Assembly (NCBI GenBank): GCA_017508045.1
Contig: JAFVZT010000018.1
Span: 1-34,765, forward strand
DNA: 34,765 bases
Source of the DNA: Oscillospiraceae bacterium
GTDB lineage: Bacteria > Bacillota > Clostridia > Oscillospirales > Oscillospiraceae
Reading direction: 5' to 3'
Below, piece after piece: positions 6,623 to 26,464 of the stretch (its first letter is position 1; each line of letters begins with the position of its first letter). The notes under the pieces are model-generated. The model saw only the letters and a list, made by a program, of their open reading frames with translations. It ran no database searches and was not told the DNA's origin. Both the position numbers and the translations under genes were made by a program.

Positions 6623-7708
6623 ATGAAAATAGACAATGTGCTTTGCGCATTTGAGTTTAATGGCGAGCCGGTTTCCTGTCAGGAGTTTGGCAAAGGCCGC
6701 ATCAACAGCACCTTTATGATTCAAACCGACACCGGAAAAGCCTATGTTCTGCAGTTAATTAACAAGCGTGTTTTTAAAGACCCGGTAAAGCTTATGGAAA
6801 ACGCCAGCCGCGTCACCAACTACCTGTTGGAGCGTACCGACGGTTGTTATACAACCTTGCGGTATATGCAAACAAAAAGCGGCACGTATTGCCATCAGGA
6901 TGAGCAGGGCGAATATTGGCGGATGTATGAGTTTGTCCCCGGCATTGGCTTGGATGCCCCGGATTCTGACGAGGATCTGTATCAGTGCGCCTTGGCCTTC
7001 GGCTGGTTTCAAAATCTGCTGGCAGATTTCCCCGCCGACTCTCTTCACGAAACTATCCCCTGCTTCCATAACACCATTGACCGTTACCAAAAGCTCAAGG
7101 AGTCGATTGCTGCCGATGTTATGGGTCGTGCCGACTCCGTCCGGGCAGAAATTGACTATCTTTTATCCCGTGAGGAAATTGCCGGAACTATCCAAAGAAA
7201 GCTGGACTCCGGCGAGTTGCCTCTGCGGGTCACCCATAACGACACCAAGCTTAACAACGTTCTTCTGGACCCTATCACCCACCAAAGCGTGTGCGTATTG
7301 GATTTGGACACTGTTCTGCCCGGCTCCAGCCTATATGACTACGGCGATTCCGTTCGCTTCGGCGCTGCCAACGGCGGCGAGGACGCGGAGGATCCCAGTC
7401 TGGTGAGCCTGAATCTGCATCTGTTTGAGGTGTACACCAAGGGCTACTTAGAAGCAGTCACCAGCTTGACGGAAAAAGAGATTGACCTGCTGCCCATAGG
7501 CGCACTGGTCATTACCCTGGAGCTGGCAACCCGCTTCCTGAAGGATTACTTAGACGGCGATATTTATTTTAAAATCAAAGAGCCTCACCACAACCTGCTT
7601 CGCGCCCGGAACCAAATTGCTTTGGCCCAGGATATGGAGCAAAAAATGACGGATATGGAAGCAATTGTGAGGAGCCTTAGGAGGACATTATCAAAATGCA
7701 GTATTTAG
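6623..7708 (+). CDS. nahK: N-acetylhexosamine 1-kinase-like phosphotransferase (APH fold)
   Basis: A 361-residue aminoglycoside-phosphotransferase-fold kinase. The glycine-rich FGKGRINSTFMI (about 22-33) is the nucleotide loop, LQLINKRVF carries the conserved Lys, RVTHNDTKLNNVLLD (202-216) is the catalytic loop with D207, and DLDTVLPG (227-234) is the metal-binding segment. The HNDTK and DLDTV signatures are those of NahK, which converts free GlcNAc or GalNAc to the 1-phosphate in the lacto-N-biose/galacto-N-biose route. It overlaps the following ROK gene by 13 bases and is in one operon with nagA, which supports an amino-sugar substrate. A related sugar kinase of the same fold is possible. 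Confidence 0.72.
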   Translation: MKIDNVLCAFEFNGEPVSCQEFGKGRINSTFMIQTDTGKAYVLQLINKRVFKDPVKLMENASRVTNYLLERTDGCYTTLRYMQTKSGTYCHQDEQGEYWRMYEFVPGIGLDAPDSDEDLYQCALAFGWFQNLLADFPADSLHETIPCFHNTIDRYQKLKESIAADVMGRADSVRAEIDYLLSREEIAGTIQRKLDSGELPLRVTHNDTKLNNVLLDPITHQSVCVLDLDTVLPGSSLYDYGDSVRFGAANGGEDAEDPSLVSLNLHLFEVYTKGYLEAVTSLTEKEIDLLPIGALVITLELATRFLKDYLDGDIYFKIKEPHHNLLRARNQIALAQDMEQKMTDMEAIVRSLRRTLSKCSI

Positions 7709-9072
7709 GTATTACATATGAAATGAAGCACGCACCCAAGCTGGACTCTGCCTTTGTCCCCTTCGGTGTCTGGAGCAATGCTTATCGCAAGAATGCCGCT
7801 ATGCCCATTGCCATTGCAGTCGAGCGTAACGACGGTAACCTTTCCGTCCGGCGCACCTGCATTCACGGCACAGCTGAGCTGGCGCAGGCAGATTATCGCT
7901 ATGTAGAACGGTACGTTAAGTTCCTGCTGTGGTCCATTGGCGGTTTTCGGGTATATGTCTGCGGCTGCAGCGACATCGCCAAGCGTCTGCAAAGTGCCTA
8001 CAGCCAAACCGGTGAACGGGCCTTTGACTACGATTTCTTCGGAAAGCTTTATGAGCGTCCTCTGGAAATTATCGACCTGCCTTTGGAGCGCTGTCCCGAA
8101 GCCAACGAAACCCCCAAGCCCATCGGCGGTCACTTGAACGGCTGTCGCATCGGCTTTGATGCCGGCGGCTCTGACCGGAAGGTTTCTGCCGTGATTGACG
8201 GTGAGTGCGTCTACTCCGAGGAAGTAGTCTGGCATCCCAAGAAAAACCCCGACCCCAACTATCAGTACGAGGGTATTTTGGATTCCTTCCGCACAGCCGC
8301 CTCGAAAATGCCCCGGGTGGATGGCATTGGCGTTTCCTCTGCCGGTGTATTTATCGGCAACGCCCCCATGATTTCCAGTATTTTCTACTGCGTTCCCAGG
8401 GAGCGCTGGGATGAGGTGAAAACCGTTTTTGACCGGGCAGCCGCCGAAATCGGCAACGTACCCATCGTAGTTGCCAATGACGGCGATGTATCTGCCCTTG
8501 CCGGTGCTATGGGTATGAATGTCGGCTCTATTATGGGTCTGGCTATGGGCACCAGCGAAGCCGTGGGCTATGTAGACAAAGACAGCAATGTTCTTGGCTG
8601 GATTAACGAGCTGGCCTTTGCCCCCGTTGACCTGCAGGAGGATGCCCTTGTGGACGAGTGGTCTACCGACCGCGGTGTGGGTTGTAAATACTTCTCTCAG
8701 GATGCGGTTATCAAGCTTGCACCTAAGGCCGGTATTGCACTGGACGAAGCCCTCTCCCCTGCGGAAAAGCTGAAAGTTGTCCAAGGTCTTATGGAGCAAG
8801 ATGACCCCAGAGCTCAGGCAATTTTTGAATCCATTGGTGCATATTTGGCTTATGCCACTGTTCAATATTCCCATTTTTACGAGTTGAAGCATTTGATGCT
8901 GCTTGGTCGTGTTATGTCCGGCAAGGGCGGTGACACCATTTTACGGGTTTGCCAAGAGGTTCTTGCCGATGAATTCCCCCGGCTTGCCGACTCTATGCGG
9001 GTTATGCTCCCCGATGAGAAAACCCGTCGCGTAGGCCAATCCGTTGCTGCGGCCAGTCTGCCGGAGTGCTAA
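7696..9072 (+). CDS. Divergent ROK-family sugar-kinase-like protein with N-terminal extension
   Basis: A 458-residue protein. Residues 150-458 follow the ROK/ASKHA fold: GFDAGGSDRKVSAVIDG (153-169) for phosphate binding, DGIGVSSAGVF (209-219), VVANDGDVSALAGA (258-271) with the probable catalytic D262, and GLAMGTSEAVGYV (281-293). The ROK zinc motif CxCGxxGCxE is not present. Residues 1-145 form an extra domain of unknown role. It could phosphorylate GlcNAc at C6 to feed NagA, or use a different amino sugar; this is inference from context. A GGAGG lies about 11 bases before the ATG, inside the end of the kinase gene. Confidence 0.7.
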   Translation: MQYLGITYEMKHAPKLDSAFVPFGVWSNAYRKNAAMPIAIAVERNDGNLSVRRTCIHGTAELAQADYRYVERYVKFLLWSIGGFRVYVCGCSDIAKRLQSAYSQTGERAFDYDFFGKLYERPLEIIDLPLERCPEANETPKPIGGHLNGCRIGFDAGGSDRKVSAVIDGECVYSEEVVWHPKKNPDPNYQYEGILDSFRTAASKMPRVDGIGVSSAGVFIGNAPMISSIFYCVPRERWDEVKTVFDRAAAEIGNVPIVVANDGDVSALAGAMGMNVGSIMGLAMGTSEAVGYVDKDSNVLGWINELAFAPVDLQEDALVDEWSTDRGVGCKYFSQDAVIKLAPKAGIALDEALSPAEKLKVVQGLMEQDDPRAQAIFESIGAYLAYATVQYSHFYELKHLMLLGRVMSGKGGDTILRVCQEVLADEFPRLADSMRVMLPDEKTRRVGQSVAAASLPEC

Positions 9073-9084
9073 GGAGTAACCAGT

Positions 9085-10212
9085 ATGTTTTACAAAAATG
9101 CAAGAATTTTCACAAAGGATTTTACCTTTCAGCTTGGCGGCTTTGAGGTAACCGAAGACGGGCGCTTCCAAAATGTACTTGGCAGCATCCCGGCAGATGC
9201 CGTGGATTTGCAAGGTGCTACCGTCATTCCCGGTCTTGTGGATGTCCATATCCACGGCTCTATGGGCGGTGACTTTTCCGATGGTGACGCCGCCGGTCTT
9301 GAGACTATGGCCAGGTATCTGTGCAAGGTGGGCGTCACCTCCTTTGCCCCGGCTTCCATGACCCTGCCCTATGAGACGCTGGAAAAGGCCTACGCAAACG
9401 GCGTCAGCTTTGTGGCTAAGCAGCTGCCCGGCTGTGCGCGGCTGATGGGTGTGAATATGGAAGGTCCGTATTTTTCCGAAAAGAAAAAGGGAGCGCAAAA
9501 TGCCGCCTACTTAAAAAATCCGGACTTTGCCGGCTTTAAGAAGCTCTATGACGGCTGTGGCGGTTTAATCCGGATTGTTGACATTGCCCCGGAGCTGCCC
9601 GGTGCAGAAGAATTTATTAAGCAGGCAAAAGAGCTTTGCACCGTGTCTATTGCTCATACCGACTCGGATTACGACCACGCCCGCAAAGCTTACGATGCCG
9701 GTGCTACCCATTTAACGCACCTGTATAACGCTATGCCCGGCATCCACCACCGCAATCCCGGTGTCATTCCGGCGGCGGCGGAAAATCCCAACGTCCGGGC
9801 AGAGTTGATTTGTGACGGGCTGCACGCCCACCCCTCCTGCGTACGGCTGGCGTTCTCCATTTTTGGCGGTAGCCGAATTGTTCTGGTGTCCGACGCTCTG
9901 CGGTGCTGCGGCTTAGCTGACGGCGAATATGAGCTGGGCGGGCAAACGGTTCGTCTTTCCGGGGGTATCGCCAAATTGGCAGACGGCACCATTGCCGGTG
10001 CTGCCACAAACCTGTTCGATGCTATGAAAAACGCCATGGCTTACGGCATTTCCGAAACAGATGCCATTCGTGCTGCCACCTACAACCCTGCCTGTGCTAT
10101 CGGTGCCGAAGCAAAAATTGGCTCCATTGAAAACGGCAAGCTGGCAGACTTTGTGGTTTGCGCTTGTGGTTATAGTCAAAAGCGTGTTTTTCTCGGCGGA
10201 AAAGAAATTTAA
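9085..10212 (+). CDS. nagA: N-acetylglucosamine-6-phosphate deacetylase
   Basis: A 375-residue amidohydrolase that removes acetate from GlcNAc-6-phosphate to give GlcN-6-phosphate. Visible motifs are DVHIHGS (H55, H57), NMEGPYFS with the metal ligand E126, AHTDSDYDHA (H191), THLYNAMPG (H209, H212), HHRNPG, CDGLHAHP and the catalytic aspartate D270 in LVSDALRC. Length is normal for the family. It starts 12 bases after the ROK gene behind AAGGAG and ends the three-gene operon, with a hairpin directly after it. No nagB is in this window, so GlcN-6-P must be handled elsewhere in the genome. Confidence 0.93.
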   Translation: MFYKNARIFTKDFTFQLGGFEVTEDGRFQNVLGSIPADAVDLQGATVIPGLVDVHIHGSMGGDFSDGDAAGLETMARYLCKVGVTSFAPASMTLPYETLEKAYANGVSFVAKQLPGCARLMGVNMEGPYFSEKKKGAQNAAYLKNPDFAGFKKLYDGCGGLIRIVDIAPELPGAEEFIKQAKELCTVSIAHTDSDYDHARKAYDAGATHLTHLYNAMPGIHHRNPGVIPAAAENPNVRAELICDGLHAHPSCVRLAFSIFGGSRIVLVSDALRCCGLADGEYELGGQTVRLSGGIAKLADGTIAGAATNLFDAMKNAMAYGISETDAIRAATYNPACAIGAEAKIGSIENGKLADFVVCACGYSQKRVFLGGKEI

Positions 10213-10216
10213 CTGC

Positions 10217-10241
10217 AATACCCCGGAGAATCCGGGGTATT
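10217..10241 (+). terminator. Hairpin at the end of the nagA operon
   Basis: An 11-bp perfect stem, AATACCCCGGA with its complement around a GAA loop, begins four bases after the nagA stop. The T tract after it is poor, so it may be an inefficient terminator or a 3'-end stabiliser. Confidence 0.6.
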
Positions 10242-10283
10242 GTTGCGCGTTGAAACCTGCTTTTTCACTTTAAGGAGTTTGTC

Positions 10284-11672
10284 ATGCTGCAAAAATATAT
10301 CGGAGATAAAGCATTTTACGGCAGAGTCAGTGCCATTGCTCTGCCCATTATTGTGCAAAATCTCATTACCAATTTCGTATCACTGCTGGATAACATTATG
10401 GTCGGTCAGCTCAGCGACGCTCAAATCAGCGCCGTTAGCATCGCCAATAATAACCTGTTGTTCATTTTTACCCTGTGCCTTTTTGGCGGTGCGGCCGGTG
10501 CGGGAATTTTTACCGCCCAGTTTCACGGCTCAGGTAATACGGAAGGCATCCGTCACGCCTTCCGGTTTAAAATTCTGATTTGTCTAGGTATAACCTTGCT
10601 GGGCTGCGGAATTTTCCTTGGCTTCAGTGAGCCTCTGATTTCCCTGTATTTGCAAGGCGAAGGCGATCCGGTTCAGGCTGCCGAAACACTGGAATACGGC
10701 CGGCAGTACATATTTATTATGTTACTTGGTATGCTGCCTTTTGCCATGACCAATGTCTACGCCAGCACCCTTCGGGAATGCGGTCACCCCACCGTGCCTA
10801 TGGTAGCCGGTCTGGTGGCAACAGCGGTTAATATGTTCTTTAACTATATCCTGATTTTCGGAAAGCTTGGCGCTCCCGCCATGGGCGTTACCGGTGCCGC
10901 CACTGCCACGGTAATTGCCCGGTATGTGGAATTTCTTTTCGTATTTTTTTGGACACACAAAAACGTGGATAAAAACCCCTATGTTCCGGGCCTTTATCGC
11001 AGCTTTTATATCCCAAAGTCGCTTCTTAAATCCATTGCCGTCCGGGGGCTTCCCCTTCTGATTAACGAGGGTTTGTGGTCGTTAGGCATGGCGCTGCTTA
11101 ATCAGTGCTACTCTTTTTACAGTCTGGATGTTGTTCCGGCACTGAGTATTTCCACCACGATTTACAATCTTTCCGCTGTAGTATTCCGGTCTTTAGGTAA
11201 CACGGTAGGCATCATTACCGGACAGATGCTGGGGGCGAAGCACTCCAACGAGGAAATCCGAAGTGACAACACCAAGATGACGGTTTTGTGTATTGCCTCG
11301 GGTGTTGTGTTTGCAGGAATAGCCGCTGCATTATCTGTGGCGTTTCCCGCTATTTACAACACCACCGACTCTGTGCGGCTGCTTTCCACTCAACTTATTC
11401 TGATTTCTGCCATAACTATGCCCCTGCAGGCCTATATTTTCCCGGTTTATTTTACCCTCCGTGCAGGCGGCAGAACTGTGGAAACCTTCTTGTTTGACTG
11501 CGGCTCCATTTGGGCCTTAAGCATCCCGGCAGCCTTTATTCTTACTCGATTAACCGGTCTGCATATTACGGTAATCTTTTCTCTTTGTCAATGTGTGGAT
11601 ATTCTTAAATGCTTCATCGGTTACCGTATGATAAAAAAAGGCGACTGGATACAAAATCTTACCGTTAAATAA
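10284..11672 (+). CDS. MATE-family multidrug/cation exporter
   Basis: A 462-residue membrane protein with about 12 transmembrane helices in the two-fold MATE pattern. The first half has ALPIIVQNLITNFVSLLDNIMVGQLSD, a typical MatE beginning (quoted in two parts: ALPIIVQNLITNF and SLLDNIMVGQLSD), followed by GGAAGAGIFTAQFHG. The second half repeats the pattern with GLPLLINEGLWSLG and RSLGNTVGIITGQMLGA. Such proteins export cationic drugs or metabolites using Na+ or H+ gradients. AAGGAG lies seven bases before the ATG. It follows the nagA operon by 71 bases and may be reached by read-through, but no functional link is visible. Confidence 0.9.
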   Translation: MLQKYIGDKAFYGRVSAIALPIIVQNLITNFVSLLDNIMVGQLSDAQISAVSIANNNLLFIFTLCLFGGAAGAGIFTAQFHGSGNTEGIRHAFRFKILICLGITLLGCGIFLGFSEPLISLYLQGEGDPVQAAETLEYGRQYIFIMLLGMLPFAMTNVYASTLRECGHPTVPMVAGLVATAVNMFFNYILIFGKLGAPAMGVTGAATATVIARYVEFLFVFFWTHKNVDKNPYVPGLYRSFYIPKSLLKSIAVRGLPLLINEGLWSLGMALLNQCYSFYSLDVVPALSISTTIYNLSAVVFRSLGNTVGIITGQMLGAKHSNEEIRSDNTKMTVLCIASGVVFAGIAAALSVAFPAIYNTTDSVRLLSTQLILISAITMPLQAYIFPVYFTLRAGGRTVETFLFDCGSIWALSIPAAFILTRLTGLHITVIFSLCQCVDILKCFIGYRMIKKGDWIQNLTVK

Positions 11673-17940: not shown

Positions 17941-18250
17941 TGTATGGATTGTTGTGGTGGCGGCCCTTGTCACTATGGCTACCCGGTTTCTTCCCTTCAT
18001 TATTTTTGGCAGAGGCAAAAAAACGCCGGATATTATTCTATACTTAGGTAAGGTGCTGCCTTATGCCATCATGGGTATGCTGGTGGTGTATTGCATGAAG
18101 GATGTCGCCTTTCTAGCTTACCCCTACGGCATCCCGGAGCTTCTGGGCTGCGTTGTGGTGGCGGCTTTGCAGCTGTGGAAGCGAAGCAGCCTTTTATCTA
18201 TCGGTGTGGGCACTGTTTTTTATATGGTGCTTGTACAGCTTGTGTTTTAA
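17933..18250 (+). CDS. azlD: AzlD-family exporter subunit
   Basis: A 105-residue membrane protein with three to four hydrophobic segments. VVAALVTMATRFLPFIIF and YLGKVLPYAIMGMLVVY match AzlD/YgaH. It is the small partner of AzlC. AAGGAGGG inside the end of azlC sets the start at 17933. A strong terminator directly follows. Confidence 0.9.
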   Translation: MHNVWIVVVAALVTMATRFLPFIIFGRGKKTPDIILYLGKVLPYAIMGMLVVYCMKDVAFLAYPYGIPELLGCVVVAALQLWKRSSLLSIGVGTVFYMVLVQLVF

Positions 18251-18283
18251 AAAATGCGATGCAGAAAATCCGCATCGCATTTT
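18251..18283 (+). terminator. Terminator of azlCD
   Basis: A perfect 12-bp stem AAAATGCGATGC with its complement around a 9-nt loop, beginning right after the azlD stop and ending in TTTT. Confidence 0.85.
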
Positions 18284-18327
18284 CCTATTTAAACAGACCG
18301 GGTTCACTGGGTAATCAGCAGACCGGG
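18284..18327 (-). repeat. Imperfect copy of the 3' end of the P-type ATPase-like gene
   Basis: These 44 bases match 24459-24502, the last codons, stop and flank of the 666-residue membrane protein gene, at 37 of 44 positions, including 12 in a row. In the same reading frame the copy encodes SLPGLLITQ followed by a stop, against VPGLLITEWTRSI in the gene. It lies between azlD and the convergent 716-residue protein gene. It may be a gene remnant or part of a dispersed element. Confidence 0.55.
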
Positions 18328-18380
18328 CAAGGAGGCGGCAGAACTGTCACCTATCCCTCTTTTTATAAGCATTTCCCTGC

Positions 18381-20531
18381 CTATCTCAGCTCTGCAAGCT
18401 TCAGCAGGGTTTCCAATACTTTCATGCTCTTGGCGGTAGAAAGATAGCTCCGTCCTGCAAGCATAAGCTCTGCGCTCCCGTCTTGGGTAACTACTGCAAG
18501 CTGTTCACCGCCCAGCTCCTTTTCATAAACAAGGTCCTCGGGAGCATCGGAGATACGAAGCATACCGCTTCCCTCTGTGTGCCAGATAACCGCATAGCTT
18601 CTATCCTTGCGGCTAAAGGTGAAGGCACGGATTTTGTCATCGCCGGTCTGCACCTGGGTGTAAGGAACTAATTCATAATTCCCCTGCTCGTTGATAAGCA
18701 GGATATGCTCCTTCTCGGTGGTCCTGAGCATATCCTTTTGCGCCGGTGTCAACCAATTGGAATTGCGGACATCCTCCCAGCGGCGCAAGACCTCTAAGGT
18801 ATCGGCAGTGCGGGCTGTTTGGTTCAAATTTTCCAATGTTCCCAGCATTGTAATGGGACAATCCCAAGCCGCGGCACGCATAGAGCCGTACTCATAGTGA
18901 TCCGGTTGCGTATCCATTCTGTATGCCCACCAGCCAAAGTTTACACGGGTAAAATTCCGAGCCATACAAGGCGCTTCCATTGCCGGATACTGGTCAATAC
19001 GCATTTTGAACTCATTCATTGGAAATACGTCAAAGGCATTGCCGCCGGTAATCATATGCCAGCTGAAGTGGCTCCGGGCAGCACCTTCGGAAAACAGCGG
19101 CGCCGGATCGAGCTTATTATACACACGCAGCTGCGCATTGGGAATATGGAATGCAAAGGGCAGGTTTGTTCCCTCAGAGCCATCAAAATAGGTAAATTCA
19201 AAGCCTAATTTATAGATCTGTGCAACTTTTTCGGCAAGCTCCTCCGGCAAATCCGTATCCTGATCCGGATAACAGGAGGTAGCGCCGAATTCCGAAACAT
19301 CCAAAATGCCTCCCCAGCAGGCAAAATCGTGCGCCTTTACCTGAGTTTCCCATGCACCCCGGACACATCCGGTAAAAGCATAGGGCGCCTCGGTAGTATA
19401 GTCCTCATAGGAAATCAGCTCTCCACCGAACTGCAGAAGTCTTGTCCCCTCTGCACGAGGGCAGCCTGCCGGATTTTGGCAGACAAAAACCGTATCATCT
19501 GTTTCGTTCAATGCTTTTGCCAGCATAAATTTCTGCTTCAGGTGCAAACGATGATCTGCCACAGGCGTAACATATTTTGTCTTTAATCCCACGTGGGTGT
19601 GCAGGAAATGAAATCCCGGAACAATGCCCGCCGCTTTTACCTTTTGCAGCATTGCTACCACATCCTCGGCACCGTTTGGGTATTCCGGACGGTAGGTATA
19701 ATCGCTGAAATAAGAGAACATCTCTCCTGCCTTAAATATACTGGGCGTGGAGAAAAGCATCAGCCGGAAGCCGCCCATTTTCGCATAGCGAATATGGGTA
19801 TCAATGTTTTCCGGTGTAATTTGCGCAGAACGGTATATAGAATAGTGAATTTCCTTGCTGCGTCGGCTCTTCACGCCACGAGGCAGCGAAAAATCCTGTT
19901 CAACCTTATCCACATCGTCCAAAAAGCTTTCAGAATTTGAAGCCAGCAAAACAGCTGTGCAGCCTTGCAGCTTCACATCCCGATGGGCTTCGGCATAGAA
20001 AACCCGGTAGTTTTGGAAGGGTTCCGCGCCAATGAACGTATGGGGCATGGCACCCTGCACATTAACCGCCACCGTATCATCCCAGAAAACATTCAGCCAG
20101 TCACCGAAATTTTTCCGGTTCTTCACAGGCAACTGCAAAAAGCGGATTTCCCGTACCGGTGGCAAATCCATATTCAGTCCTTCATAATTATACTGGGTTT
20201 TGTCCACCCAGAAATCCACGAAGGTGACCGCCAAATACTGCGGCTGTTCCTTGATCTCCAAAACTGCTTTATAAGGAACGACTTCAAACCCCACAAGCAG
20301 GCGGTTTCCCTCCCGGGTGATAGAATTTGCCCGAAAGGTAGTTTTCGCACATAAATAGGACAGCTTAATTTCGTTATGATACGGGCGGTCCTGAGTTACT
20401 GTACACAGCGGAACCGGCTCATATAAATCCAGGCATTCCTGTCCGCTTCCTTTATGAATTAAGCTTTTGACAATGGCATTGCTGCCAACAGTCAGCCTAA
20501 ATTGGCCGGTTTCCAGAATAATATCTTCCAT
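18381..20531 (-). CDS. Large probable TIM-barrel glycosidase-like protein, family not assigned
   Basis: A 716-residue protein with no signal peptide, so probably cytosolic. I cannot place it in a named family. Residues 1-200 look like a beta-sandwich (many Tyr/Phe-rich strands). Residues 225-580 look like a TIM barrel: GGFRLMLFSTP (253-263), AAGIVPGFHFLHTHVGL (300-316), GGELISYEDY (369-378), FTGCVRGAWETQVKAH (386-401) and FEFTYFDGSEG (444-454) with D450 at a strand end. Residues 600-716 look like a small beta domain. This layout is that of clan GH-D-like glycoside hydrolases; D450 and an acidic residue near 371 or 502-508 are candidate catalytic groups, which is inference. It is the last gene of the AraC-linked operon, 12 bases after the creatininase gene. 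Confidence 0.6.
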   Translation of the reverse strand: MEDIILETGQFRLTVGSNAIVKSLIHKGSGQECLDLYEPVPLCTVTQDRPYHNEIKLSYLCAKTTFRANSITREGNRLLVGFEVVPYKAVLEIKEQPQYLAVTFVDFWVDKTQYNYEGLNMDLPPVREIRFLQLPVKNRKNFGDWLNVFWDDTVAVNVQGAMPHTFIGAEPFQNYRVFYAEAHRDVKLQGCTAVLLASNSESFLDDVDKVEQDFSLPRGVKSRRSKEIHYSIYRSAQITPENIDTHIRYAKMGGFRLMLFSTPSIFKAGEMFSYFSDYTYRPEYPNGAEDVVAMLQKVKAAGIVPGFHFLHTHVGLKTKYVTPVADHRLHLKQKFMLAKALNETDDTVFVCQNPAGCPRAEGTRLLQFGGELISYEDYTTEAPYAFTGCVRGAWETQVKAHDFACWGGILDVSEFGATSCYPDQDTDLPEELAEKVAQIYKLGFEFTYFDGSEGTNLPFAFHIPNAQLRVYNKLDPAPLFSEGAARSHFSWHMITGGNAFDVFPMNEFKMRIDQYPAMEAPCMARNFTRVNFGWWAYRMDTQPDHYEYGSMRAAAWDCPITMLGTLENLNQTARTADTLEVLRRWEDVRNSNWLTPAQKDMLRTTEKEHILLINEQGNYELVPYTQVQTGDDKIRAFTFSRKDRSYAVIWHTEGSGMLRISDAPEDLVYEKELGGEQLAVVTQDGSAELMLAGRSYLSTAKSMKVLETLLKLAELR

Positions 20532-20543
20532 TTTTCTTCCTCG

Positions 20544-21281
20544 TTACACAATTACGCTTCTAAGCCACTCCAAGGTGCATTGTACCATATGCTTTCCGGT
20601 CTCTGCGCTGGCTTCCTTGGCGCTTTCGGCAAACCACTCGGTATTTCTTTCGCACCGGGACAGGTCTACATTTTCAGGCCAGGTACCCATCATCAGGCTG
20701 GTTTCCCACTTGCCTGCGTGATCAAAGCCGCCGCATTTGATTTGTGCCTCGGCACCAATCAGGGGAACAACCTTAATGTAGGAGAAGGGATCTTCTCCGC
20801 CGCCGAGATTTTCGTAATAAGAGGCATAGCTGTCGCTGCCCCACCAGCCCTTGCCCAGCTTTTCTTCCATATATTCCATAGTGACCTTTTTGGCCGCTTT
20901 ATGGCAGGCAATGGTCATAGGCATCAGACCTGCGCCCTCAGTTTGATGATGGGGGATCAGGTAGATATTTTTATGCCCTGCGTCAATCATCGACTTGAGA
21001 ATGCAGTACAGGTATTGGGCATAGGTATCCTCGTCAACGTGGAAGTGGCTGGGCTTCGGCTCACAGACCGCATAGGATGCCACACCGTACCACACAGGCG
21101 GACAGATCACAATTTCCTTTTCCTTTTCCAGCTCACGCAAGCAGCCGGTAACCACCATTGTGTCTGTGCCGCAGGATGCGTGGTGGGCATGGTATTCCAA
21201 GGTTCCTATGGGAATAATAAAGGGTACATTTCTGTTAACTGCGTCTTGAATATCATCGTAAAACATATCCACTAGCTGCAT
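20544..21281 (-). CDS. Creatininase-family amidohydrolase
   Basis: A 245-residue protein with the family's first metal motif as IPIGTLEYHAHHASCGTD (E29, H31, D40), a second at IPHHQTEG (H111, H112, E115) where NGHxxN is usual, and GFDHAGKWETSLMM (187-198) with E193. The family includes creatininase, MftE, and deformylases acting on formamidopyrimidines; all hydrolyse cyclic or linear amides with a two-metal site. The altered second motif suggests a non-standard substrate. ATG at 21281 follows AAGGAG. It lies between the M24-like and 716-residue protein genes, so it probably serves the same pathway. Confidence 0.8.
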   Translation of the reverse strand: MQLVDMFYDDIQDAVNRNVPFIIPIGTLEYHAHHASCGTDTMVVTGCLRELEKEKEIVICPPVWYGVASYAVCEPKPSHFHVDEDTYAQYLYCILKSMIDAGHKNIYLIPHHQTEGAGLMPMTIACHKAAKKVTMEYMEEKLGKGWWGSDSYASYYENLGGGEDPFSYIKVVPLIGAEAQIKCGGFDHAGKWETSLMMGTWPENVDLSRCERNTEWFAESAKEASAETGKHMVQCTLEWLRSVIV

Positions 21282-21301
21282 AATTTTTGCTCCTTTCCAG
21301 A

Positions 21302-21327
21302 CAAGCCCCACAAAAATGTGGGGCTTG
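21302..21327. other. Perfect hairpin inside the operon
   Basis: An 11-bp perfect stem CAAGCCCCACA with its complement around a 4-nt loop fills the 70-base gap between the M24-like and creatininase genes. There is no T tract on the operon strand, so it is more likely an mRNA processing or stability element than a terminator. Confidence 0.55.
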
Positions 21328-21351
21328 ATTGTCCTATCTGAGATATTCTAT

Positions 21352-22524
21352 TTAGAAATAAAGCTCCGGACACAGCTCGGGAATTTCCGGGCTGAGCAGC
21401 TGGAAGCCGTTTTCGGCAACGGCGATACCCTTCTCCCAACGGACACCGAAGGTGTCGCCGGAAATGTAGGTGTCCACCTGGAAGCACATATTGGGCTTCA
21501 GGTAATAATCAGAGCTAGTTTCACACCAGGGTGCTTCCACCTCGATAATACCGGTGCCGTGCAGAGGTCCGTAAACGTAGTTCTCAGCAAAGCCGTTGTC
21601 CACAAACTTCTGATAGAAGCCCTTTGCAATGTCAGCAGCAAACACACCGGCCTTCACCTGCTTGGCAGACCAATCGTGCATTTCGCGGCAGAACTGTACA
21701 ATCTCGCGGCGGCGGCCCTCCAGCTTACCCAGGCAGAGGGGGTAGCCGATGGCGGCAGAATAGCCGTCAATTTTCGCAGACAGGTTCAGCTGCACAATAT
21801 CATTCTTCTGGAACTGCCGATAGGAAGAACGGGAAATGGCATGGCGGGTAGATGCCTCAGAAAATACGTACATAGGCAGGCCTTCATACTCTGCACCGTT
21901 TTCGTAAACCACACGCTGTGCAACGCCTACCATCTGCAGCTCGGTCATACCGGGCCGAATTTCCTTCATCACCTGCTGGGTAGCCAGTTCAGCAATCCGG
22001 TAGCCCTCACGCAGGCAAGCCAGCTCATTTTCGGATTTAATGGAACGAAGCTCCACCATAATCTTACCGGCATCAATCAGCTCTGCCTTGGGGAATGCCT
22101 CACGGATGGCATTGTAGATGGTGACGGAGGTATCCAGGAAGGATGCCACGCCAATACGCAAATGCTCACCGGACACACCGATGGCCTTGAAAACATCGTG
22201 GAAGGTATCGGGCTTCAGCTCCGGATAAGCAGGGTCTGCACCCTCACGGTAAGCTGTCAGAACAAAGGTCTTGTCCAGCTTGTTGCGGTCTGCACCAAAC
22301 ACAGCAGACTCAGGGCCTACCATCAAAGCGGCATCACCGTTTGCGGCAATAGCCACGCCGGCGCGCTCAAACAGAGGCCAGAAGCCGGAAAAATAACGGG
22401 GGTTGGCATAGTCAGCCTCGTTGCCGTTGACGATCAGAACATCCAGTCCCTCACGGCGCAAAATAGCTGCCGCACGCTGTACTCTTTCCTTGTATTCGTA
22501 ATCAGGAATGCAAATTCTAGACAT
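21352..22524 (-). CDS. Creatinase-like M24 (pita-bread fold) protein lacking two metal ligands
   Basis: A 390-residue protein with a creatinase N-terminal domain (about 1-155) and an M24 domain (160-385). Metal-dependent M24 peptidases have Asp, Asp, His, Glu, Glu. Here the expected positions read N247 (in QLNLSAKIDGY), A258 (in GYSAAIGY), H322 (in GPLHGTGI), E330 and E364, so both aspartates are gone. H228 in STRHAIS is the conserved substrate-side His. Creatinase itself uses this fold without metal to hydrolyse creatine to sarcosine and urea, so a metal-free hydrolase is more likely than a peptidase. It is adjacent to a creatininase-family gene, as in creatinine degradation, though the other neighbours point to sugars. 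Confidence 0.78.
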   Translation of the reverse strand: MSRICIPDYEYKERVQRAAAILRREGLDVLIVNGNEADYANPRYFSGFWPLFERAGVAIAANGDAALMVGPESAVFGADRNKLDKTFVLTAYREGADPAYPELKPDTFHDVFKAIGVSGEHLRIGVASFLDTSVTIYNAIREAFPKAELIDAGKIMVELRSIKSENELACLREGYRIAELATQQVMKEIRPGMTELQMVGVAQRVVYENGAEYEGLPMYVFSEASTRHAISRSSYRQFQKNDIVQLNLSAKIDGYSAAIGYPLCLGKLEGRRREIVQFCREMHDWSAKQVKAGVFAADIAKGFYQKFVDNGFAENYVYGPLHGTGIIEVEAPWCETSSDYYLKPNMCFQVDTYISGDTFGVRWEKGIAVAENGFQLLSPEIPELCPELYF

Positions 22525-22546
22525 ATGTATTTCCTCCTAAAAATAA

Positions 22547-22903
22547 TTATTCACAATAGCCGGGTGTGGTGTAAAAATTCACCGTCCGGGGTTCTGCTCT
22601 GCCGTATTGGGCAACTACCGGCACAGAGCTTTCCAGCATAATGGCATACTGCTGTTCAAACTCCGCAGTATAAACGCCAAAATCCTCCTCGCGGTTGGTG
22701 CGCAAACACCGAACACGCTTCGCATTTACCGTGGTAGTAAAGCTGACCGGATCCTTGTCCGCATACAAAAGTGTAATTTTAATCACTGCATCTGTATCCG
22801 TCACATTGGTGATAATCACAGATTCGTGCCCGGGAATGGCGTTTACCCCTACAGGGGGAAGCTCCGCATCCGGGAATATCCAAACCTTCTTTCCGTAATC
22901 CAC
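22547..22903 (-). CDS. ASRT-domain (sensory rhodopsin transducer family) small-molecule-binding protein
   Basis: A 118-residue beta-rich protein with the ASRT pattern: GKKVWIFPDAELPP, PGHESVIITN (25-34), ITLLYADKDPVSF, KRVRCLRTN and VPVVAQYGR. The family was named for the transducer of Anabaena sensory rhodopsin, but most members occur without rhodopsin in carbohydrate gene clusters and are predicted to bind sugars or other small ligands. No rhodopsin gene is present here. The start is a GTG at 22903 with TAAGGAGGT six bases ahead. It lies 11 bases after the RhaM-like gene. Confidence 0.8.
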   Translation of the reverse strand: MDYGKKVWIFPDAELPPVGVNAIPGHESVIITNVTDTDAVIKITLLYADKDPVSFTTTVNAKRVRCLRTNREEDFGVYTAEFEQQYAIMLESSVPVVAQYGRAEPRTVNFYTTPGYCE

Positions 22904-22914
22904 AAAATACCTCC

Positions 22915-23244
22915 TTACCTATAGTAGAAAATTTGCTGCATATCGTGGTAAAACTCGCTGTCAGGGGAAAACGCGAACTTTTCAAAACAGGGCTTTGTAT
23001 GCGTCCACCATTGCTGCGTCACCGGGTCCTGTGCCATTTTTTCCATATCCGCCTCATAGTCCTCGCCCACATATTCAAAATAGGCAAAGACCAAATCGCC
23101 ATTGCGGAAAATGGAGTAGTTCTGCAAATTGCAATCGGTAATCGTTTTCAAAACCTCAGGCCACGGATTTGCATGAAGCGCACAGTAATCTTGAATTTTC
23201 TCAGGCTTTAAACGTCCAACCTGTCCGAAGCAAACCTTTTTCAC
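22915..23244 (-). CDS. L-rhamnose mutarotase-family protein
   Basis: A 109-residue ferredoxin-like-fold protein with the RhaM pattern: YCALHANPWPEVL (Y20, H24), NYSIFRNGDLVFAYFEYVG and a WWTHTKPC end. RhaM interconverts the anomers of L-rhamnose; relatives act on other deoxy sugars. Full length for the family. A GTG at 23244 is the likely start, eight bases after AGGGGG; the GTG at 23253 overlaps the ribosome site. It is the first gene of the five-gene operon. No rhamnose isomerase or kinase is nearby, so the real substrate may be another sugar, and the symbol rhaM is withheld. Confidence 0.82.
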   Translation of the reverse strand: MKKVCFGQVGRLKPEKIQDYCALHANPWPEVLKTITDCNLQNYSIFRNGDLVFAYFEYVGEDYEADMEKMAQDPVTQQWWTHTKPCFEKFAFSPDSEFYHDMQQIFYYR

Positions 23245-23264
23245 TGCACACACCCCCTAACTTA

Positions 23265-23270
23265 ATTATA
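23265..23270 (-). promoter_or_regulatory. -10 box of the mutarotase-ASRT-creatinase operon
   Basis: A perfect TATAAT on the reverse strand, 21 bases before the RhaM-like start. There is no good -35 box at 17 bp (TTTTCA at best), which fits a promoter that needs an activator. Confidence 0.55.
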
Positions 23271-23296
23271 TAATAACCCCTCACAAGTGAAAAATC

Positions 23297-23325
23297 TTGG
23301 CTGATATTGGCATAAAATAGGACAA
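23297..23325 (-). promoter_or_regulatory. Candidate AraC-type operator upstream of the operon
   Basis: AATAGGACAA at 23316-23325 lies about 60 bases before the predicted start of transcription and just after the araC stop codon. The same ten bases recur at 24242-24251 in the araC leader. Two TTGGC copies (23297-23301 and 23307-23311) ten bases apart lie between it and the -10 box. Position and spacing fit an AraC activator site. Confidence 0.45.
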
Positions 23326-23328
23326 TAT

Positions 23329-24198
23329 TCACTTTTCGATGCCAAGTGGCTGTTGCTGCTTGGCGTATTGGTACGGTGTACAATCCTTATACTTTTTAAA
23401 GCAGCGAATAAAATAACTGATGTCGTTAAAACCACATTGGTTTGCAACCTCCGTGATGGTAAATCTTCTCTGCTCCAGCAAATAGCAAGCCACATCAATT
23501 CTGTAAAAATTTACATAGTCAATGGGCGTTCTTCCGGTTACAACACGGAAATATTTGCAGAAATATTTCGCTGACAAGCCGGCTATCCGGGCCAGGTCAT
23601 CCAGAGAGATTTGCTCCTGATAATTGCAGGAAATAAATTCAATAGCCGTTTTTATCTGGGAAATCCGGCCATGACCTTCTTTTTTTCTTTCAGTCCGGCT
23701 TCGGTATTCCTTCTGCAGCGCCGTTCCGTAAAAGTCATACAAGCCGGAAAGCACAAGCAGCTCCCAGCCCTGCTTTTTATATCTGGCCGCTGCAAACAGT
23801 CGGGATGCGCATTTTAAAATACCCGGTTGCTCCTTGGTAAAGACGTTTTGGATTTGACAGCCGTCCTTCTCCAAAACGCTTAAGTATTTTCGAACGATGG
23901 GTGTTTGATGCAGCAAGGAGGAGATATTGAAATCGATACATTCATAAGCGCAGCTTACAGGTTCTCCGCCGTGGAGTGTTCCTCCGGGAATATAACACAG
24001 CTCACCCTCCTGCAGAAGTATCTCCTTGCCGTTCAGAGAGAGCTTAAACTCCCCTTTGCGGATATACAACAGTTCCGTCTCGCTGTGCCAGTGATACGGC
24101 ATAGTATACCGGGGATGCTGTGGGTCCACAGCATAGAATTCCAACGGAAAAGTATCGGAGCCGTGCTGCCTTAGTTCTTTATAGTTTAAATAGTGCAT
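23329..24198 (-). CDS. AraC-family transcriptional regulator with cupin sensor domain
   Basis: A 289-residue regulator. The N-terminal half is a cupin: PYHWHSETELLYIRKGEFKL (34-53), then LLQEGELCYIPGGTLHGGEP. The carboxy half (about 185-285) has two helix-turn-helix units, ISLDDLARIAGLSAKYFCKYF and ITEVANQCGFNDISYFIRCF (quoted without flanks), and the terminal TPYQYAKQQ. Such proteins sense a sugar or metabolite and activate adjacent catabolic genes. It is transcribed toward, and ends about 60 bases before, the promoter of the five-gene operon, so it is the likely activator. Confidence 0.92.
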   Translation of the reverse strand: MHYLNYKELRQHGSDTFPLEFYAVDPQHPRYTMPYHWHSETELLYIRKGEFKLSLNGKEILLQEGELCYIPGGTLHGGEPVSCAYECIDFNISSLLHQTPIVRKYLSVLEKDGCQIQNVFTKEQPGILKCASRLFAAARYKKQGWELLVLSGLYDFYGTALQKEYRSRTERKKEGHGRISQIKTAIEFISCNYQEQISLDDLARIAGLSAKYFCKYFRVVTGRTPIDYVNFYRIDVACYLLEQRRFTITEVANQCGFNDISYFIRCFKKYKDCTPYQYAKQQQPLGIEK

Positions 24199-24241
24199 AA
24201 TTCACATTCCATTCGCAATTAGAGCATATTTTCTACTGAAT

Positions 24242-24296
24242 AATAGGACAAAATGTAACATACTTTAATCTTACGGCATTACATTGCCGATGTCAA
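24242..24296 (-). promoter_or_regulatory. Promoter of araC with spacer palindrome and shared motif
   Basis: The reverse strand has a perfect TTGACA (24296-24291), a 17-bp spacer and TAAGAT (24273-24268). The spacer is almost entirely the palindrome CGGCA-N6-TGCCG (24274-24289), which looks like an operator. AATAGGACAA (24242-24251) lies about 10-19 bases after the predicted start, where bound protein would block transcription, so autorepression is plausible. Confidence 0.6.
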
Positions 24297-24322
24297 GTCT
24301 TAGGTATATCTAAAAAGAAATG

Positions 24323-24352
24323 GGAGTGGCACAGCAAACCCTGTGCCACTCC
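24323..24352 (-). terminator. Terminator of the rlmB/P-type ATPase-like operon
   Basis: A perfect 12-bp stem GGAGTGGCACAG with its complement around a 6-nt loop. The reverse strand continues CATTTCTTTTTAG. It lies 111 bases beyond the stop codon at 24464; nothing else is visible in the gap 24353-24463. Confidence 0.75.
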
Positions 24353-24463
24353 GTATAAAAAGAATATTGCCAATATGGGAAAACCTTTTGTGCTGTCTCA
24401 CAATTTGATTAACCCGAAAGCATCTCAATCCCGCTTTCGTGCGCAGCTTCTTCGTCTTCCTAT

Positions 24464-26464
24464 TTAAATGGAACGGGTCCATTCGGTAATCAGCAGTCCG
24501 GGAACCATCCACACCAGCTCATACAGGAACATGTTTACCGGTGTTAACAGCTCTGCCGCGCCTAAAACAGCCAGCACCGCCATCATCACGATGCCCAAAA
24601 TTCCGCCGGTCATATGCACAATCGTACCCAGCTTTGCCGCCGTTTTGACGCTTCTTGCGCCGGTTACTGCGTAAGCAACAGGAGCAAAGCCCTGTCCGGT
24701 AATTAAGGCAAGCGCCGGCGCTTCCGAATCCTGTGTCACCTCACGCAAAGCAGCGCGTTCTTCCGATTCCGGAATTTCCAAGCGCTTTGTTTTTGCTCCG
24801 AAAACAGATTGGATAAAGCCGAGATTCAAAATAAAATCGTTGGCAATCAGCACAGACTTTAGTCCACGGCAGGCAGTCAATGTGGAAAGTCCTGCCACAG
24901 AGGACTTATCCTTTTCATAGGTAATGGCAAACAAACCGCACAGCTCGGTATTCACAGCCAGACATACTGCCTGATTAACCCGAACACCCTCCGGCAGCAC
25001 TACGCCCATATCCTTTAGAAAACGCAGCGTGCCCACCAGCACCGGCTCACCGTTTACCTCGCCGCCGATTCCGCCGTCATAGACGGTAAGGTTTTCCACT
25101 GTATAGTGCATGCCGTTTCGGCTGTCCAGCAAATGGGTAAACAGCGGCTCCAGACTGCTTTGGTCTGCGGAAATCAGAGCTGATGCATAGGCGATAATCT
25201 GATCCGGCTGACGATCCCCAAAGAATTTGACACCGTTCATCTGCACCGTTCCGGAGGGGAACAGGTCTTCGTGTTTTAGCGGAAATACCGCCTTGCCGCA
25301 CAGACCCTCCACGCCCTGCCAGCCGCACAGAACCGTACCCAAAGCATGCAGCCGACGCTCCAAAATCGCCATAGGACGGGATATGGTAATAAACATGGAT
25401 GCCGGCATAGCAGCAAGGGTAGTCACCGCTGCAACCTGAATGCCAAAGCGAGGGCTATGGAGTATTCCCGCCGCAACGCCCAGCGCCACACTGACGCACA
25501 AGGCAACCAGTGCATAAATGTTCAAAATTCTTTCCTGCCGGGAGGGTTTTTCATAGGTGTCCATAAAATGCTCCACCTGTCCCTCACCCCGGAGAAAGCC
25601 CTTTGTTCCGCGGTAATACTCCTTTTCTGCGGTAATACTGTCCAACCGGGTTGCTTTGCGCATGGTATCCAGCTGTCCCATACGGGCGTTTCTGCGCTGG
25701 TAAGTGCTCCACAAGGACATGGTTACCTGCAGGCTAAAGGCAGCGCAGCAGGGAATTGCCTGCTCCTTCAAGCACAAAACGCCGTCAACGCAGCACAGGA
25801 AAAAGGTAAACAGCAGCAGCGTATTCAAAGAAAACCGCTTCCGGAGCAAATCCGCCGCACCCTCAAGAAGCTGGAAGCTGCCCAGTAATGCGGACAAAAG
25901 CATGGATATAAACTGGACAAACACCATCAGCCGCAGACGGCTCTCCGGCACAACCCCAAAAGCGTACATGGCTGTCATCAAGGTTGATGCAAGCACCACC
26001 AGAATACTGGCAAAAATCGCAAGCTGAATTTTCACCAGACCTTTTTCCACCAGAGCATAATACTGCTTTTCCGGTCCAGCTACCAGCTGCTTTTTTAATT
26101 CCCGCAGGCGGGAACGGGGACGGAAGGCAATGGGCTGGGGAGGAACATACTCGGCAATGGGCTGCTCATACTCCGGCTCCCACTGGGCAGAATACGGCTC
26201 GGTTCTGTGTTCCTCCGGCACAGGCAGCTGGGCATCGTCTTCCTCTTCTAAAATGGGCTTGGCATTGTGTACCTTTCCCTGCATTTGGGGAAGCTTTTCC
26301 AAACGAACAGTATCTCCGGTAACCGTGGAGGTAACCGTCGGCTCCTCCTTCTGCTCCTGAGCTGTTTCTTCTTCCGCCTCCGGCGCAGACTCGGAGCCAA
26401 ATTCTTTTAGAATATCCTCCAGACTAAATTCCAGGTCCTTCTGGTCTTTTTCCTGCTCGTCCAT
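24464..26464 (-). CDS. Degenerate heavy-metal P-type ATPase-like membrane protein
   Basis: A 666-residue protein. Residues 1-110 are acidic, Glu/Pro/Gln-rich and probably disordered. Hydrophobic pairs lie at about 147-200, 213-250 and 313-360, and a last pair at about 615-660, as in P1B ATPases. The TM6-like segment reads AVTTLAAMPASM where CPC is usual. The phosphorylation site that should follow reads VFPLKHEDLFPSGTVQMNG (393-411), with no DKTGT. The N-domain-like GGEVNGEPVLVGTLRFLKDMG lies at 467-487. The hinge and TGDN motifs are replaced by YEKDKSS (516-522) and LIANDFILN (539-547). It therefore cannot pump by the normal cycle. AAAGGAGGT overlapping the rlmB stop sets the start. Role unknown. 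Confidence 0.72.
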   Translation of the reverse strand: MDEQEKDQKDLEFSLEDILKEFGSESAPEAEEETAQEQKEEPTVTSTVTGDTVRLEKLPQMQGKVHNAKPILEEEDDAQLPVPEEHRTEPYSAQWEPEYEQPIAEYVPPQPIAFRPRSRLRELKKQLVAGPEKQYYALVEKGLVKIQLAIFASILVVLASTLMTAMYAFGVVPESRLRLMVFVQFISMLLSALLGSFQLLEGAADLLRKRFSLNTLLLFTFFLCCVDGVLCLKEQAIPCCAAFSLQVTMSLWSTYQRRNARMGQLDTMRKATRLDSITAEKEYYRGTKGFLRGEGQVEHFMDTYEKPSRQERILNIYALVALCVSVALGVAAGILHSPRFGIQVAAVTTLAAMPASMFITISRPMAILERRLHALGTVLCGWQGVEGLCGKAVFPLKHEDLFPSGTVQMNGVKFFGDRQPDQIIAYASALISADQSSLEPLFTHLLDSRNGMHYTVENLTVYDGGIGGEVNGEPVLVGTLRFLKDMGVVLPEGVRVNQAVCLAVNTELCGLFAITYEKDKSSVAGLSTLTACRGLKSVLIANDFILNLGFIQSVFGAKTKRLEIPESEERAALREVTQDSEAPALALITGQGFAPVAYAVTGARSVKTAAKLGTIVHMTGGILGIVMMAVLAVLGAAELLTPVNMFLYELVWMVPGLLITEWTRSI

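Follow-up and report, generated by a model that had tools for sequence, protein, structure and literature searches.

A conserved AraC-linked gene set uniting M24, ASRT and creatininase-family proteins with sugar-type genes, a candidate and probably mobile catabolic cassette of several bacterial lineages

Solo ASRT domains have been described as small cytosolic proteins that are encoded in sugar operons and predicted to act as sugar sensors, and the neighbours given for them in the gene-context passages of that paper are isomerase, aldolase and kinase genes, an ABC transporter, amylase, dehydratase and others, M24 and creatininase-family proteins not being named in those passages (de Souza, Iyer and Aravind 2009, PMC2739507). 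FucM is the L-fucose mutarotase of the non-phosphorylating fucose pathway, as outlined in the portion of PMC11199699 that deals with it. The pairing of an M24 protein with a creatininase-family protein has a parallel in creatinine degradation, where the same two superfamilies stand side by side. IolN (NF041098), the 3-dehydro-scyllo-inosose hydrolase, is a creatininase-family hydrolase whose pathway belongs to carbohydrate catabolism. Here we describe a locus that combines elements of these systems in an Oscillospiraceae bacterium (GCA_017508045.1, contig JAFVZT010000018.1, positions 1 to 34,765; the whole of this stretch is referred to as the window). An AraC-family regulator gene is followed by genes for a RhaM-like mutarotase, a small cytosolic-type ASRT protein, as in the published sugar operons, an M24 protein, a creatininase-family protein and a 716-aa protein. 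On balance we lean towards reading this set as a sugar-catabolic cassette under AraC control that passes from lineage to lineage. No published description of the gene set was found in searches of one open-licence library, where the other papers listed look unrelated from their titles.

The six genes lie on the minus strand from 24198 down to 18381, and the features of the locus are as follows.

24268..24296, minus strand: sigma-70-like promoter of araC (TTGACA-17-TAAGAT), consensus match only
23329..24198, minus strand: AraC-family regulator, cupin-type sensor domain and HTH, 289 aa (HTH_AraC 8.8e-21, AraC_binding 9.2e-13)
23303..23335, minus strand: operator-like site AAAGTGAATATTGTCCTATTTTATGCCAATATC, with copies of its 12-mer AARGTGAATATT and 33-base matches in other loci
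23265..23293, minus strand: sigma-70-like promoter of the structural genes (TTTTCA-17-TATAAT), before the mutarotase gene, consensus match only
22915..23253, minus strand: RhaM-like mutarotase, 112 aa (Pfam rhaM 1.4e-27)
22547..22903, minus strand: ASRT-domain (predicted sugar-binding) protein, 118 aa (Pfam ASRT 1e-21)
21352..22524, minus strand: M24 (pita-bread family) protein, 390 aa (Peptidase_M24 2.1e-26, with Creatinase_N)
20544..21311, minus strand: creatininase-family amidohydrolase-like protein, 255 aa (Pfam Creatininase 3.1e-28)
18381..20531, minus strand: 716-aa protein, no relatives in Pfam, NCBIfam or the PDB; gene context makes it a probable glycosidase

The sequence-only reading had proposed a compact leftward operon of five genes with an AraC regulator upstream, and the open reading frames and Pfam domain calls agree with this, the 716-aa protein having no Pfam family. 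The gaps among the five structural genes are 11, 22, 40 and 12 bases, the distance from araC to the mutarotase gene is 75 bases, and all five structural proteins are soluble-looking. The upper limit given in that reading, 24296, is the first base of the promoter-like site of araC.

All five structural genes were found together in three further loci (L081, L082 and L083, the first two being near copies) in two other orders; in L081 and L082 four genes follow the order of the window and the 716-aa gene stands at the front instead. The refuting check set in the sequence-only reading, absence of the gene order from every other genome, did not overturn that reading, although the exact order of the window was seen in no other locus. 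The grouping is not due to chance. The M24 and creatininase-family proteins of these three loci are 85-87% identical to those of the window, and the 716-aa proteins 47-49%. A wider sample consisted of 38 neighbourhoods centred on creatininase-family genes, 20 from a search of the window's order and 18 from genomes carrying the 716-aa family, leaving out ten loci in which the 716-aa family adjoins a creatininase-family gene. In 25 of these (16/20 and 9/18) the creatininase-family gene had an M24 gene at a distance of two genes or less, and in 13 (9/20 and 4/18) an ASRT gene was nearby. The core of the set is formed by the AraC, M24, ASRT and creatininase-family genes, which mutarotase-like genes and glycosidase types join; in five loci (L172, L174, L175, L176 and L177) the whole unit is a divergent AraC gene with M24-ASRT-creatininase. 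Counts over module runs refer to 34 runs, from which L082, L110 and L076 (near copies or cut; L110 is a near copy of L109) and L065 (divergent M24) are omitted. Genes in the loci were called with a simple longest-ORF caller, and blastp was used where antisense ORFs hid M24 or ASRT genes; of one set of run counts affected by this, only those for the MFS gene are used. Separately, at 7978-11665 of L228 (G899:C8) two tandem creatininase-family paralogues are followed by a distant 716-aa relative, beside a divergent AraC gene.

The M24 protein is nearer to Xaa-Pro peptidases (2zsg, E 1.3e-21) than to creatinase (1chm, E 6e-11). When ten module M24 proteins were aligned to 2zsg, the metal ligands D, D, H, E, E were replaced by N, A/S, H, D, E in all ten, and the column of the N-lobe His, which we take to be the catalytic residue of creatinase, held Ile in all ten; the ordinary M24 peptidase of the same genome (on contig C26) keeps D, D, H, E, E and the N-lobe His. 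Since both Asp ligands are lost, the module M24 protein is not a dinuclear peptidase; its residues and scores do not fit creatinase either, the N-lobe His being lost and the closest match being of prolidase type. A second atypical M24 protein of this genome (392 aa, both Asp ligands lost) is encoded directly behind a 464-aa protein at 70-2664 of L234 (G000:C19), a parallel pairing of an M24 protein without metal ligands with another hydrolase, the 464-aa partner being presumably of the MlrC/M81 type. The creatininase-family protein scores 99.2 bits against PF02633 (gathering cut-off 31.3) and keeps E39, H41, D50, H122 and the H198/E203 motif, which are invariant in 8 rows. Relative to Pseudomonas putida creatininase, in which we assume E34, H36, D45, H120 and E122 to be the metal ligands, four of the five positions are kept, and E122 aligns with T/S124. 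Its best NCBIfam match is IolN (57.6 bits, cut-off 245), followed by creatininase TIGR04448 (56.9 bits, cut-off 235), so that both equivalog cut-offs are missed and the protein is assigned neither as a true creatininase nor as IolN; the likeness to IolN is one of family and of carbohydrate context, and the difference lies in this distance below the cut-off. Creatinine degradation differs from the locus in the residues and scores of the M24 protein and in the score of the creatininase-family protein under TIGR04448. These residues and scores led us to reject a creatine/creatinine pathway for the M24 protein, a rejection that does not extend to the creatininase-family protein.

The nearest solved relative of the RhaM-like protein is 7byu (E 1.2e-25), named L-fucose mutarotase in the PDB and presumably identical with FucM, and this is the likeness to the non-phosphorylating fucose pathway; the operon differs from that pathway, as outlined in the portion cited, in holding no fucose dehydrogenase, lactonase or dehydratase gene. 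As an L-rhamnose mutarotase proper the protein falls short (TIGR02625, 45.9 bits versus a cut-off of 99.6). It keeps H27, Y46 and W82-W83, residues that we assume to serve mutarotase function. The ASRT protein scores 77.5 bits against a Pfam cut-off of 25. Relative to the published signature SHEshChhN, as it is printed in the signature passage of PMC2739507, the window has GHESVIITN, with H, E and N kept, S replaced by G and the predicted ligand Cys by Ile; among 12 proteins listed, 11 have Ile and one has Met in place of this Cys. Because the signature Cys is not kept, the alignment suggests that the ASRT ligand differs from that of TM1070.

For the 716-aa protein of the window, called TIM-barrel-like in the sequence-only reading, no Pfam or NCBIfam family was found. 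Among 31 family members no Pfam family scored below E 0.039, and the tally of weak hits shows no consistent family; searches of the PDB by sequence gave no relative, the single sub-threshold match being a ribosomal protein (E 0.69), and the 31-row profile matched nothing even at E 10. Invariant acids in the 31 rows include E371, E414, D450, E453 and D501. Genes of a distant branch (CL18-type), which also occur beside the module, align by profile over window residues 150-623 (99.4%, E 5.6e-22). Our best guess, from gene context and not from a match, is that this protein is a glycosidase, and from the same context it would be the member that frees the sugar. Matches were found in 1/150 genomes of the window's family (the window's own), 21/295 in the order and 7/391 in the class, with the window itself and distant matches counted. 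A contig scan with a 13-row profile confirmed 129 relatives, and the 80 loci kept span Bacillota, Bacteroidota, Lentisphaerota, Kiritimatiellota, Verrucomicrobiota, Planctomycetota and Omnitrophota. Ten of the 80 hold a creatininase-family relative (L076, L081, L082, L083, L086, L091, L101, L105, L109 and L110) and two an M24 relative only (L065 and L066). On a tree of 84 sequences the label of module linkage, borne by 12 members, has to be gained or lost 7 times (no fewer than 6 times as judged by starred branches), and the starred group that holds the window protein does not include L076 or L081-L083. These label changes, together with the contrast between 85-87% and 47-49% identity noted above, indicate that various members of the 716-aa family have probably been partners of the cassette. 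Two further observations concern this family: residues ~345-405 carry the segment GELI.YE.YTTE.PY.FTGC.RG...T...H, which to our eye resembles small beta domains of phage baseplates, and L112 (3732-10326) holds three tandem copies of the gene.

The operator-like site AAAGTGAATATTGTCCTATTTTATGCCAATATC sits 9 bases upstream of the -35 element before the mutarotase gene, its first 7 bases overlapping the end of araC. It was chosen by eye from the output of motif sampling and then tested in the loci and against shuffles. Matches upstream of the module were found in L216 (26/33), L066 (24/33) and L083 (22/33), the first two being the best outside the window in 2.65 Mb of loci searched; the site is intergenic in L216 and L066 and overlaps the called start of the divergent araC in L083. 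Twenty shuffled 33-base sites reached a maximum of 24/33, attained by one of them, so that at full length only L216 exceeds every shuffle. The 12-mer AARGTGAATATT occurs in exactly 4 exact copies in 1,867,128 bases (119 loci), in the window, L083, L066 and L216, in every case no more than 160 bases upstream of the leading gene of the module. With one mismatch allowed it was found at 5 places near modules, where 0.2 are expected, and at 33 elsewhere; the fifth near place, in L176, falls within the AraC gene of that locus. The four loci with exact copies are those whose AraC protein aligns over its full length with that of the window (196-209 bits, 34-37%), and for ten further AraC proteins encoded near modules the alignments, most of them partial, score 53-76 bits. 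When 11 intergenic stretches were sampled for motifs, the scores rose modestly above those of six shuffles (10.1 bits versus 8.1-8.5 at width 14, and 11.5 versus 9.0-9.5 at width 18). The promoter matches, taken alone, are weak evidence, as 16 promoter-like sites were found in 18000-24700 versus 8.2 +/- 2.6 in shuffles. A different arrangement was seen upstream of the M24 gene in L169 and L172, where pairs of GATNRTGCAA half-sites, unlike the window site, lie exactly 21 bases apart, a spacing usual for AraC-type sites.

The connection of the operon with sugar, already proposed in the sequence-only reading, was strengthened by the recurrence of mutarotase-like, glycosidase-type and symporter-like genes beside the set. 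A mutarotase or mutarotase-like gene lies in or beside 17 of the 34 runs (RhaM in 3, DUF4432 in 8 and DUF6786 in 6, labels assigned by blastp to Pfam-scanned members), and carbohydrate-type neighbours include GHL6, GH29, GH20, GH3, CBM9, a NodB-type deacetylase, Amidohydro_3 and a Mac/hexapeptide acetyltransferase. Five Bacteroidales loci (L086, L091, L101, L105 and L109) have M24, creatininase and DUF6786 genes consecutively in that order, with an MFS gene next in four of them (L091 ends there), and a 716-aa homologue and GHL6, GH29 or CL18-type genes before or behind; SusC and SusD are present in L086 and L091, and GH29 in L101 and L109. The best models of two scanned MFS proteins were NagP, GluP and FucP, below cut-off. 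A Kiritimatiellae locus (L211) has M24, NodB, GHL6, creatininase, MFS and DUF6786-like genes, the MFS protein again being sugar-symporter-like, and an FGGY kinase gene adjoins the set in L081. That transporter and sugar kinase would lie outside the window's gene set, as had been noted for this operon, agrees with these relatives, in which a sugar-symporter-like MFS gene (five Bacteroidales loci, and L211) or an FGGY kinase gene (L081) adjoins the set instead. By eye, the Bacteroidota 716-aa homologues begin with signal- or lipoprotein-like stretches and three Clostridia homologues do not, and in L086 the M24, creatininase, DUF6786 and GHL6 products have no signal-like start. From this gene context the role of the set is probably the release and use of a sugar.

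A creatininase-family gene (E <= 1e-30) is present in 21/394 genomes of the window's order, none of the four other sampled genomes of the genus (G049, G135, G817 and G849) matches the creatininase-family protein, and three genomes from two other families (f16 and f20) encode proteins 85% identical to it. The absence of a match in genus mates, while other families hold 85% identical proteins, suggests horizontal transfer. In the order of Petrimonas the gene was found in 1/277 genomes, Petrimonas itself only; the homologous locus L091 belongs to Petrimonas sp. IBARAKI, a cultured relative. Among 50 genomes carrying the 716-aa family, hand-picked from the 80 loci and with all ten adjacent cases among them, 28 have a creatininase-family gene (E <= 1e-40), or 18/40 without the ten adjacent cases, and the Bacteroidota among them have it in 6/11 (two of the six being near copies); the ratio of co-inheritance is rough, since genome sets, queries and thresholds differ. 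Within the order, co-occurrence was 7/13 versus 14/381 (Fisher 6e-7, assuming that the genomes of the 716-aa search all lie in the creatininase set). L-fucose isomerase (PF02952, E <= 1e-30) was found in 15/21 creatininase-positive genomes of the order versus 102/368 others (Fisher 7e-5, assuming that all 21 are within the 389 scanned), a comparison that mixes families and is confounded by them; the window's own genome, 76% complete, has no L-fucose isomerase. Replacement of canonical fucose catabolism by the set is unsupported, as the set mostly coexists with L-fucose isomerase. Carriage on plasmids was likewise rejected, the 716-aa protein having two weak Embleya matches only and the creatininase-family protein none at 1e-20.

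No clear GC shift marks the operon (44-52% per kb versus 47-56% in the surroundings). Ordinary genes flank it, AzlC/AzlD downstream and, upstream, first a gene for a 666-aa protein that no Pfam family matches above cut-off and next a SpoU methylase gene. Elsewhere in the window, a rightward row at 6623-11669 holds genes for a phosphotransferase of the APH type, a 458-aa protein with no Pfam family, a protein of the Amidohydro_1 family and an exporter of the MatE type.

In a sugar-catabolic cassette of this kind, the 716-aa protein would cleave a glycoside, in the cytosol here and outside it in Bacteroidales, the mutarotase would interconvert the anomers of the freed sugar, and ASRT, serving as sensor or as partner of an enzyme, would bind the sugar. 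Its conversion would then fall to the M24 protein, which is without the usual metals, and the metal-bearing creatininase-family protein, likeliest through the opening of a C-N (acyl-amide) bond or a ring bond. The shortest route, based on the Bacteroidales loci, would lead from an exported glycosidase through a sugar symporter and a cytosolic mutarotase to the M24 and creatininase-family pair. This pair may act on the free sugar, given that a kinase, isomerase or dehydrogenase is not recognised in most runs, many genes of which are unscanned. As to the substrate, the sugar would probably resemble L-fucose, and our guess is a 6-deoxy sugar that is fucose-like or N-acylated: GH29, GHL6 and the mutarotase hint at a fucose-like sugar, and the amide-opening families, the NagP-like symporter and the neighbouring deacetylase and acetyltransferase genes at an N-acylated sugar, so that an N-acyl 6-deoxy-amino sugar might fit both hints.

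Several observations weigh against this interpretation. No member of the gene set has been characterised, and the 716-aa protein has no family-model or solved-structure match to a known glycoside hydrolase family. It adjoins a creatininase-family gene in 10 of its own 80 loci and in 0 of the 38 separately fetched creatininase neighbourhoods, and is thus not an obligate part. An M24 neighbour is absent from 13 of the 38 neighbourhoods, some at contig ends, and ASRT is absent from the Bacteroidales and Kiritimatiellae loci examined. DUF4432 is only presumably of the galactose-mutarotase type, for DUF6786 a single weak hit to a mutarotase model was obtained (18.4 bits, cut-off 550), the two have no profile match to each other, and neither has a PDB match by sequence. 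The 12-mer was selected after the sequences had been viewed, which makes it a strong yet not a blind test, with odds that are not clean.

The standalone loci also speak on this side and raise the alternative of a peptide or compatible-solute hydrolase cassette, in which an M24 protein of the prolidase or ectoine-hydrolase type would act with a creatininase-family peptidase like MftE, and the sugar genes would be chance neighbours. The four scanned neighbour genes in L174, L176 and L177 encode an iron hydrogenase, a P-type ATPase, a BspA-type LRR protein and a carbamoyl-phosphate synthase, none a sugar gene, and the M24 protein is closest to Xaa-Pro peptidases. We consider this alternative very improbable, as the ten module M24 proteins lack the metal ligands that the genome's ordinary peptidase retains, and genes of mutarotase-like and glycosidase type are seen repeatedly in Clostridia, in Bacteroidales and in one Kiritimatiellae locus. 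The sequence-only reading had favoured as substrate an amide or guanidino compound in glycosylated form, which the 716-aa protein would split, with the two hydrolases processing a nitrogen-bearing aglycone. Two families acting on C-N bonds share an operon with a mutarotase, as such a compound would lead one to expect, and a ureidoglycolate-lyase-like cupin gene is present in L083 and L076. A guanidino or creatine-like substrate is not supported, given the loss of both metal-bridging Asps and the N-lobe His from an M24 protein that scores closer to prolidases than to creatinase, and the signal-less products of L086 (mutarotase-like, M24, creatininase-family and GHL6, by eye) beside a symporter suit one imported sugar better than an aglycone; we regard this model as quite unlikely. 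An oxidised-sugar route would have a Gfo/Idh/MocA protein make a keto-sugar, the creatininase-family protein hydrolyse a diketone or lactone in the manner of IolN, and the M24 protein act as a further lyase. IolN is indeed the best NCBIfam match, ThuA is present in L083, and genes of the Gfo/Idh/MocA type are found close to the set in L083 and L173 (Pfam) and in L065, L168, L169 and L217 (blastp, at only 24-31%). Such genes are common in these genomes, a Gfo-like label falls inside only one run out of 34 (L168, which the contig end truncates), and the window operon has no dehydrogenase, so that we hold this route to be unlikely.

We retain the reading of a probably mobile, AraC-controlled sugar-catabolic cassette. 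A bolder form of it, which we put forward tentatively and regard as somewhat unlikely, would be a new mode of monosaccharide entry into metabolism. A 6-deoxy sugar, perhaps an N-acylated amino one, would be freed by a glycosidase from a family not yet described, its right anomer would be supplied by one of three mutarotase types unrelated to each other, and an ASRT-assisted pair of a metal-stripped M24 enzyme and a creatininase-family metallohydrolase would act directly on the free sugar, ahead of phosphorylation or isomerisation. If this were true, ASRT would be an enzyme subunit or allosteric sensor and not a light-signal transducer. The finding describes a compact gene set of uncultured gut and digester anaerobes whose members are placed only loosely by family models (as peptidase, creatininase, rhodopsin transducer, rhamnose mutarotase or nothing at all). 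It gives ASRT a recurrent neighbour that can be tested as its partner, and it points to a large unclassified protein family that lies, in some Bacteroidales, within polysaccharide-utilisation loci.

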